Assembly (NCBI RefSeq): GCF_027257875.1
Contig: NZ_JAPVQY010000027.1
Span: 1 to 64,000 of the forward strand
DNA: 64,000 nt
Origin: Burkholderia sp. IMCC1007
Lineage (GTDB): Bacteria > Pseudomonadota > Gammaproteobacteria > Burkholderiales > Burkholderiaceae
Direction of reading: 5' to 3'
Each line of letters starts with the position of its first letter. Within the stretch, counting starts at the first letter, position 1. Below are positions 34,430 to 57,161 of the stretch, in pieces. Under the pieces are notes generated by a model. That model worked only from the letters and a program-made list of their open reading frames with translations. It was not told where the DNA came from and searched no databases. The translations under genes were made by a program, and so were the position numbers.

Positions 34430-34437
34430 CGGCGCCG

Positions 34438-34481
34438 CCCGGGGACGACCCCGGGTCATTCGCTTCAACGGGGACGGCCCC
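34438..34481 (+). ncRNA. Guanidine-II (mini-ykkC) riboswitch
   Basis: Two hairpins, each closed by a four-base ACGR loop: CCCGGGG-ACGA-CCCCGGG (34438-34455) and GGGG-ACGG-CCCC (34470-34481), separated by 14 bases. A GGAG ribosome binding site follows at 34491-34494, then the gdx start at 34504. Two C/G-rich stems with ACGR loops just before a ribosome binding site define the mini-ykkC class, which binds two guanidinium ions and frees the ribosome binding site. The downstream gene is the expected target. Confidence 0.88.
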
Positions 34482-55397: not shown

Positions 55398-55426
55398 TTG
55401 CGCACCCAGCGGAATGCCGCTATAGT
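55398..55426 (+). promoter_or_regulatory. Promoter of the leu leader transcript
   Basis: TTGCGC (55398-55403) and TATAGT (55421-55426) are spaced by 17 bases. Transcription should start at about 55433, so the leader peptide ATG at 55434 lies at or next to the first base of the RNA. Confidence 0.55.
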
Positions 55427-55433
55427 CGTCGGC

Positions 55434-55514
55434 ATGACTGCATTTCCCCGCCTTTCCCTCCTTCTAGCCGGTGCGCCGCTACGCGCGCTAGCTTTGGCGC
55501 GCCTGCCGCGCTGA
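55434..55514 (+). CDS. leuL: leuA leader peptide (Leu-rich)
   Basis: A 26-residue peptide, MTAFPRLSLLLAGAPLRALA then LARLPR, with eight leucines. Their codons include CTT twice, CTA three times and TTG once; such codons are rare in the surrounding genes, which use CTG and CTC. Rare control codons in a short peptide 100 bases before leuA are the hallmark of ribosome-mediated attenuation by leucyl-tRNA supply. There is no ribosome binding site, because the predicted transcript starts right at the ATG. Downstream hairpins CGCCA/TGGCG (55556-55569) and GCGCGC-tagctttg-GCGCGC are present, but no classical U-run terminator. Confidence 0.72.
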   Translation: MTAFPRLSLLLAGAPLRALALARLPR

Positions 55515-55616
55515 CCATTCTCGCCCTCCGTCAAGCCTCGTCTGTTGTTGAGCGTCGCCAGCGGTGGCGCGATCTCATTACGTTTGACTTCCATATAAAG
55601 CCCCCTGGAGCTCCCC

Positions 55617-57161
55617 ATGACAGACAAGCTGATCATTTTCGATACGACGTTGCGTGACGGCGAACAATCGCCCGGCGCGTCGATGACGAAGGAAGAGAAA
55701 ATCCGCATCGCGAAGCACCTCGAGCGGATGAAGGTCGACGTGATCGAGGCCGGCTTCGCGGCCAGCTCGAACGGCGACTTCGACGCGATCCACACGATCG
55801 CCGGTCTCGTGAAGGACAGCACGATCTGCTCGCTGGCGCGCGCCAACGACAAGGACATCCAGCGTGCGGCGGACGCATTGAAGCCGGCCAACAGCGCGCG
55901 GATCCACACGTTCATCGCGACGTCGCCGCTGCACATGGAGAAGAAGCTGCGGATGACGCCGGACCAGGTGTTCGAGCAGGCGCGTCTCGCGGTGCGCTTC
56001 GCGCGCAAGTTCACCGACAACGTCGAATTCTCGCCGGAAGACGGCAGCCGCTCGGATCTCGACTTCCTGTGCCGCGTGCTGGAAGCGGTGATCGCCGAAG
56101 GCGCGACGACGATCAACATCGCCGACACGGTCGGCTACGGCGTGCCGGAACTCTACGGCAACCTCGTGAAGACGCTGCGCGAGCGCATCCCGAATTCGGA
56201 CAAGGCGATCTTCTCGGTGCACTGCCACAACGACCTCGGGATGGCGGTCGCGAACTCGCTCGCCGGCGTGAAGATCGGCGGCGCCCGGCAGGTCGAGTGC
56301 ACGATCAACGGTCTCGGCGAGCGCGCGGGCAACACGTCGCTCGAGGAAATCGTGATGGCCGTGAAGACGCGCAAGGACTACTTCGGGCTCGACGTCGGCA
56401 TCGACACCACGCAGATCGTGCCGACGTCGAAGCTCGTGTCGCAGATCACCGGGTTCGTCGTGCAGCCGAACAAGGCCGTGGTCGGCGCGAACGCGTTCGC
56501 GCACGCGTCGGGCATTCACCAGGACGGCGTGCTGAAGGCGCGCGACACCTACGAGATCATGCGCGCGGAAGACGTGGGCTGGACCGCGAACAAGATCGTG
56601 CTCGGCAAGCTGTCGGGCCGCAACGCGTTCAAGCAGCGCCTGCAGGAGCTCGGCGTGTCGCTCGACAGCGAAGCCGAATTGAATGCCGCGTTCATGCGCT
56701 TCAAGGATCTGGCCGACCGCAAGGCCGAGATCTTCGACGAAGACATCATCGCGATCGTGTCCGAGGAATCGGCGCTCGCGCACGAGCAGGAGCACTTCAA
56801 GTTCGTGTCGCTGTCGCAGCGTTCGGAGACGGGCGAGCAGCCGCAGGCGAAAATCGTGTTCGCGGTCGAAGGCAAGGAAGTGACCGGTGAAGCGCGCGGC
56901 AACGGCCCGGTCGACGCGACGTTCAATGCGATCGAAGGCGAAGTCGGCAGCGGGTCCGAACTGCTGCTGTACTCGGTGAACGCGATCACGACCGGCACGC
57001 AGGCGCAGGGCGAAGTGACCGTCCGGCTGTCGAAGAGCGGGCGGATCGTCAACGGCGTCGGCACCGATCCGGATATCGTCGCCGCATCCGCGAAGGCGTA
57101 CATTTCCGCGCTGAACAAGCTGCACTCGAAGGACGACAAGGTCAACCCGCAGCGCTCGTAA
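55617..57161 (+). CDS. leuA: 2-isopropylmalate synthase
   Basis: A 514-residue enzyme condensing acetyl-CoA with 2-ketoisovalerate, the first committed step of leucine synthesis. The catalytic barrel starts [15 protein letters not shown] (residues 9-23); [14 protein letters not shown] gives metal ligands; the C-terminal regulatory domain ([18 protein letters not shown]) mediates leucine feedback inhibition. Length is that of the long bacterial form. TGGAG precedes the ATG. Expression is probably set by the leader at 55434-55514. Confidence 0.97.

Follow-up and report, generated by a model that had tools for sequence, protein, structure and literature searches.

A predicted leaderless, leucine-rich leader upstream of leuA in Burkholderia and its relatives

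What does a short, leucine-rich open reading frame do immediately upstream of leuA, on a transcript that is predicted to begin at or next to its own start codon? We addressed this question in a 64,000-nt stretch of DNA from Burkholderia sp. IMCC1007 (contig NZ_JAPVQY010000027.1; hereafter the window), whose genome assembly measures 8.57 Mb, and in the upstream regions of leuA in the genus and across the family.

The leader frame and its conservation in Burkholderia

Upstream of leuA the window carries ilvH, ilvC and a pssA-type gene, and the closest named relatives of leuA itself are those of Burkholderia territorii (99%) and B. paludis (98%). Elsewhere in the window, a Guanidine-II riboswitch (RF01068, 50.5 bits) lies at 34437-34481 on the plus strand. 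The original prediction had singled out a 26-codon frame with eight Leu codons some 100 bases before leuA; this frame held at its coordinates (Table 1), translates as MTAFPRLSLLLAGAPLRALALARLPR followed by the stop, and is separated from the leuA ATG (55617) by 102 nt.

Table 1. Features of the leuA leader region, with positions in the window.
Feature	Position	Strand	Remarks
Predicted -35 element, TTGCGC	55398..55403	+	weak, 3/6 consensus matches
Predicted -10 element, TATAGT	55421..55426	+	7 nt 5' of leader ATG
Leader peptide frame	55434..55514	+	26 codons, 8 Leu; ATG 55434, stop TGA 55512-55514
Predicted hairpin P2	55495..55513	+	7 pairs, loop of 5; at 3' end of leader frame, into stop codon
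Conserved pyrimidine-rich segment A1	55521..55530	+	just 3' of stop; can form helix X with hairpin C 3' arm
Near-invariant hairpin C, GCGUCGCC-AGC-GGUGGCGC	55552..55570	+	no U-run after it
leuA Shine-Dalgarno (SD), GGAG	55607..55610	+	
leuA, 2-isopropylmalate synthase	55617..57161	+	NF002087.0, E 1e-277

The promoter that had been proposed with this frame, a TTG and a TATAGT box spaced by 17 nt, stood in part. The spacer between TTGCGC and TATAGT is 17 nt, the -10 box is kept across the 65 genus genomes (TATAGT in 56, TATATT in 9), and ATTGC in the -35 region is invariant (65/65), but a strict promoter scan reported no site at the leader because the -35 element matches only 3/6 of the consensus. 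When both strands of the whole 64 kb were scanned for TATA[ATG]T-N6/7-ATG, the leader was the single site. The predicted lack of a ribosome binding site was borne out, with an SD-like motif within 18 nt 5' of the leader ATG in 0/65 genus genomes and an SD-like motif before leuA in all 65. The leader thus combines the absence of an SD with a -10 box placed 6-8 nt before the ATG, as in a leaderless attenuator, and a small, cognate-codon-rich frame immediately ahead of a biosynthetic gene, as in a leu attenuator; the mRNA 5' end is predicted to be the leader ATG or to fall within a base or two of it.

The eight Leu codons of the leader are, in order, CTT, CTC, CTT, CTA, CTA, CTA, TTG and CTG, six of the eight being CTT, CTA or TTG. 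The claim that neighbouring genes avoid these three codons proved right for two of them: CTT and CTA are absent from leuA and pssA, but TTG occurs three times in leuA and twice in pssA. In a set of 37 open frames that the window contains (uncurated, at least 250 codons, GC3 >0.8), CTA, CTT and TTG made up 0.64%, 1.9% and 6.8% of Leu codons, which makes CTA and CTT rare codons and TTG no more than an uncommon one. CTA accounts for 40% of the Leu codons of genus leaders compared with 0.6% in these long frames, and for 33-73% of leader Leu codons per group, except in the mixed 'other' set (22%) and in group g11 (19%).

The stretch was present in all genomes searched of the genus sample (65 genomes, group g1), with a 7-nt spacing between -10 box and start, an ATG and a TGA in each of the 65. 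The frame measured 81 nt in 64 genomes and 87 nt in one, so the sole indel is a multiple of three, while the distance from its stop to leuA drifted over ten values (99-108 nt). The leader was found in 65/65 real genus upstream regions compared with 5/1300 shuffled ones. Minor-allele counts at codon positions 1, 2 and 3 were 57, 45 and 109, variation being highest at third positions. Synonymous changes made up 23/53 distinct leader variants (43%, compared with 35% expected), a modest excess; the 30 nonsynonymous variants are not rare against these 23, which counts against the attenuator reading. Two codon positions were nearly fixed and the remaining ones variable, a pattern consistent with rare control codons: among the 64 frames of 81 nt, codon 16 was CTA in all 64 and codon 10 CTT in 63, codon 11 was CTA in 56, and codon 21 was TTG in 36, CTA in 15 and TCG in 13. 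Some genus members lack certain Leu codons, one peptide being down to four Leu.

These features suggest the following mechanism. A ribosome would begin the 26-codon peptide at the leaderless mRNA end. With charged tRNA-Leu scarce, chiefly the CUA-reading isoacceptor, it would slow at the rare Leu codons and leuA would be turned on; with charged tRNA-Leu plentiful, it would reach the stop codon and leuA would be turned down.

Leaders and intrinsic terminators outside the genus

In a family survey, a strong leuA match was found in 140/160 genomes, genus members included. We took 120 upstream stretches from family members outside the genus, of which 119 were usable, and added 76 named loci (G067, G090, G201, G207 and the second leuA of G137 are absent from the family sample; rows left out were L001-L003, which duplicate or closely copy members of the genus set, L075 and L080, with no leuA motif found, and L241, with no ATG). 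A leader was scored when the ATG of an 8-60-codon frame containing three or more Leu codons lay 4-8 nt downstream of a -10 box. By this test, 196/260 upstream regions had a leader before leuA, as did 101/5200 dinucleotide shuffles and 1/260 reverse strands. A 44-codon frame in L149 was judged spurious and is not counted (197 with it). Leaders were distributed over 65/65 genus regions, 91/119 other family loci and 40/76 named loci, that is, 131/195 outside the genus (132/195 with L149). Although the test permitted spacings of 4-8 nt, the 196 leaders had 7 nt between -10 box and ATG in 142 cases, 6 nt in 53 and 8 nt in one. One further locus of g12 has a 9-nt spacing and so falls outside the test, and two others, L037 and L059, have Leu-containing frames with a GTG start 6 nt past a -10 box.

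The leader is widespread but patchy beyond the genus. By the same test it is missing from 28/119 family loci and 36/76 named loci, among them the loci of g16 (3), g17 (2), g18 (2) and g23 (1), 6/7 of g8, 8/15 of g11, 5/15 of g20 and 1/15 of g12. The genus names behind these labels were inferred, for g3, g11 and g12 through leaders that named loci share or resemble; the assignments of g24 to Ralstonia and of g20 to Paraburkholderia are guesses. The original prediction had named a lack of peptide conservation in relatives as grounds for refutation; the peptide is conserved in the genus and the genera closest to it, and in more distant loci a Leu-rich frame is kept at the same place but the peptide is different (for example MKTLAIALLLSSTGRRQ, MISRQVLIARTTLGGLLGHQVGTRAR and MLMNFSPLTGLLLLALSLKLGAGKA). 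In the genome studied here, the sequence examined around trpE and around hisG contained no -10-N6/8-ATG site, and leaderless leaders are therefore not shown to be general.

Many of these relatives have an intrinsic terminator after the leader, which was detected in 76/77 leader-bearing loci of Comamonadaceae-type, Cupriavidus-, Ralstonia- and Polynucleobacter-like lineages and g5. The counts were 28/28 in the Comamonadaceae-type set, 5/5 in named Polynucleobacter-type loci and 14/14 in g12, 13/13 in the Ralstonia-like g24, 14/15 in the Cupriavidus-like g3, 1/1 in g5 and 1/1 in Cupriavidus necator (L076). Since the Comamonadaceae-type set was picked from named loci already having a leader, its 28/28 says nothing about loci that have no leader. 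The longest run matching the terminator 5' arm lay 13-18 nt before the leader stop in 20/21 examples examined (43 nt in L209). Such a run, complementary to the terminator 5' arm, would be free with the ribosome at the Leu codons and covered with the ribosome at the stop. The median fraction of shuffles that gave an equally good antiterminator pairing was 0.00 in g12, where the real pairing is clearly better, 0.11 in the Comamonadaceae-type set and 0.10 in g24, where the advantage is moderate, and 0.41 in g3 and 0.82 in g5, where the pairing is not above shuffles. We read these terminator-bearing loci as putative classical attenuators, with an intrinsic terminator as the likely output in the four lineages and, probably, an opposing antiterminator segment where the leader frame ends.

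The common position, promoter spacing and codon choice lead us to infer that the Burkholderia leader is the same sensor as that of these relatives. The sensor half of the original prediction, ribosome-mediated attenuation through Leu codons read from a start at or near the 5' end, draws strong support from comparison: the reading frame, its spacing, its start and stop and its rare codons all persist in the genus, and in relatives a leader of this kind is followed by an intrinsic terminator. On these sequence grounds, the role of the leader as the leucine sensor of a ribosome-mediated leuA attenuator is well supported, and the leucine-rich frame would very probably allow cells to make more leucine once charged tRNA-Leu becomes limiting.

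Conserved RNA after the leader stop and the output in Burkholderia

In agreement with the original prediction, which saw no U-run terminator, an intrinsic terminator between leader and leuA was not found in the genus beyond weak matches in 3/65 genomes, and none that was convincing appeared in g20 (0/11), g25 (0/11) or g13 (0/3). In g10 (L161-L175) a weak terminator was scored in 7/15 loci; the finder yields false positives, and in the five seen with a stricter finder the "terminator" consisted of the hairpin at the leader's own end with ATTCTTC after it (in the RNA, hairpin P2 and AUUCUUC). Burkholderia and the nearest genera have in common a pyrimidine-rich segment after the stop and, instead of a U-run, the near-invariant hairpin C. 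The hairpin's core was present in 104/104 leader-bearing genomes of five genus groups and in 3/7 leader-lacking ones; its loop letters vary and its stem does so little, g10 excepted.

For P2, an alignment of 81 sequences had 99.3% of its cells paired; the share was 95.9% for helix X and 97.5% for hairpin C without its outer pair (76% for the outer pair), and slid versions of the three helices paired less (23-82%). A comparison of the leader across Burkholderia, as the original prediction had suggested, revealed two near-fixed Leu codons, but covariation of the alternative stems (P2, hairpin C and helix X) did not go beyond that of shuffles. In g8, the hairpins of L243 and L244 hold A-U or U-A where others hold G-U, and the remaining ones are broken or were not found.

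Seven Paraburkholderia-like loci are without a leader by our test (L146-L149, L151, L004 and L005). A TATAGT box is still present in L146, L148 and L149, and hairpin C is kept in L148, L004 and L005, which hints that it might have a role of its own. A C-rich run directly after the leader stop is present in four other loci, L010, L072, L073 and L078, which come from Noviherbaspirillum, one MAG labelled Bordetella and two further MAGs. Three of the four have no intrinsic terminator, and the match in L073 falls inside the leader; perhaps these loci use another terminator-free output.

A folding model in which the ribosome occupies the stop codon gave hairpin C a mean probability of 0.70 in g1, 0.84 in g20 and 0.99 in g13, but only 0.31 in g25 and 0.00 in g10, and with stalled ribosomes the hairpin hardly formed. 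This ribosome-position switch was rejected as evidence because dinucleotide-shuffled leaders suppressed hairpin C equally well.

How, then, might the Burkholderia leader act on leuA, if it acts through translation at all? That another leucine or amino-acid switch such as a T-box or riboswitch runs leuA, the frame being coincidental, is very improbable, since an Rfam search at the locus gave nothing at the gathering score and three weaker matches (E up to 1), none of them a T-box or riboswitch, and since so few shuffled upstream regions contain a leader-like frame. The region could also be only a promoter with a structured 5' UTR or a small RNA, and the frame an untranslated by-product: A1 and hairpin C, both outside the frame, vary no more than the frame itself does, and short transcripts derived from 5' UTRs are described as common in B. 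cenocepacia in the part of PMC5688073 available to us. We consider this improbable in view of the frame-preserving indel, the invariant ATG and TGA, the third-position bias and retained rare CTA codons, and the Leu-rich frames of different sequence that occupy the same place in other genera.

An alternative that keeps the sensor and places the output in translation, in which RNA after the leader stop would pair with the leuA start region and hide it, takes up the original suggestion that the leuA ribosome binding site might be masked. The leuA start (55617-55625) reads ATGACAGAC in 62/65 genus genomes and can pair with the post-stop segment; this pairing beat the dinucleotide-shuffle mean in 65/65 loci of g1, 15/15 of g10 and 11/11 of g25, and among 59 unique pairs none of 300 partner permutations gave a mean energy as good as that of the real partners. 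The complementarity is nevertheless unspecific: only 6/10 loci of g20 and 1/3 of g13 were above shuffles, leuA windows from +25 to +40 pair about as strongly as the start or more strongly, and of the four other genus groups, three have a leuA start that is an equal or better partner for the genus post-stop segment. Moreover, the predicted openness of SD and start stayed nearly constant across ribosome positions, and we regard translational masking as unlikely. For the other output that had been suggested, Rho, we found a mild excess of C over G after the stop (C-minus-G in the top 8-10% of windows) and nothing more. Since the relatives appear to control transcription, we nonetheless favour, as a plausible but tentative reading, premature termination free of a U-run for Burkholderia and the genera closest to it, in which Rho probably assists and A1 and hairpin C compete as partners. 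An output of an undescribed kind in these genera is somewhat unlikely. More broadly, and with caution, it is conceivable that a single leaderless leucine sensor, with a 5'-terminal AUG and CUA as the codon read, serves two outputs in Burkholderiales, namely a terminator or, in Burkholderia, Paraburkholderia and their kin, a module of A1 and hairpin C that replaces it.

Relation to known attenuators

Leaderless mRNAs have been reported in B. cenocepacia (PMC4603805) and C. metallidurans (PMC7563307), and leuA does not figure in the accessible portions of the main text of either paper. None of the leucine terms looked for occurs in the main text of the papers on B. thailandensis and B. pseudomallei, and leucine is not mentioned in PMC2965389. 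According to the portion available of a survey based on Rfam models, amino acid attenuators are found mostly in Gammaproteobacteria, where they perhaps originated, with very few transfers (PMC3766115). No description of a leader-peptide leu attenuator in Burkholderiales was among the literature matches listed; a prior mention is possible because PMC6123439, in the part accessible to us, cites putative leaders in various Gram-negative species from a 2004 survey (Vitreschak and others). Our comparison indicates that such an attenuator recurs patchily across Burkholderiales, and current Rfam models are blind to it in the four loci scanned, the Leu leader model RF00512 giving no match at the present locus or at L039, L076 and L067. 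Beyond the idea of attenuation itself, the analysis adds how widely the leader occurs in Burkholderiales, which relatives bear a terminator, and a conserved hairpin. A leaderless start would free the sensor from SD strength, and the terminator-bearing and terminator-free lineages form a natural experiment in which the output changes and the sensor is kept.

The leuL leader of E. coli and Salmonella, with which the present leader shares Leu control codons ahead of leuA, lies in an ordinary 5' UTR with an SD and ends in an intrinsic terminator. In mgtL and tnaC, translation of the leader decides Rho-dependent premature termination without a U-run; the termination proposed here would be of that type, but the signals differ. 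In Actinobacteria, the LEU element forms a conserved pseudoknot before leuA. The Leu control codons of the Enterobacteriaceae leader include CUA in Salmonella (PMC6123439 and PMC1183508, as far as accessible), where changing CUA to CUG lowered the sensitivity of the attenuator (available part of PMC1183508). Like the putative leuA leader proposed in Corynebacterium glutamicum in the accessible part of PMC4046766, which also cites formation of the ilvBNC leader peptide without a ribosome binding site, the Burkholderia leader is short, Leu-rich and placed before leuA. With Sinorhizobium meliloti trpL, whose leaderless mRNA starts with AUG and whose translation was shown by Ribo-seq (PMC10117765, available part), it has in common an attenuator leader peptide, the leaderless start being predicted here; trpL responds to tryptophan in an alphaproteobacterium, whereas the amino acid here is leucine.

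Leaderless leu leaders are already known in Streptomyces. In S. lividans, leuL1 is likewise a short Leu-rich leader before leuA, reported as leaderless and without a typical Rho-independent terminator in the part of PMC8079986 available to us; it belongs to a different phylum, and the likeness is one of description. leuL1 has 15 codons with four adjacent Leu, whereas the Burkholderia leader has 26 codons and mostly rare Leu codons at several places. Hairpin C sets the present leader apart from those of Streptomyces and Corynebacterium, as among the loci examined it belongs to the Burkholderia group only.
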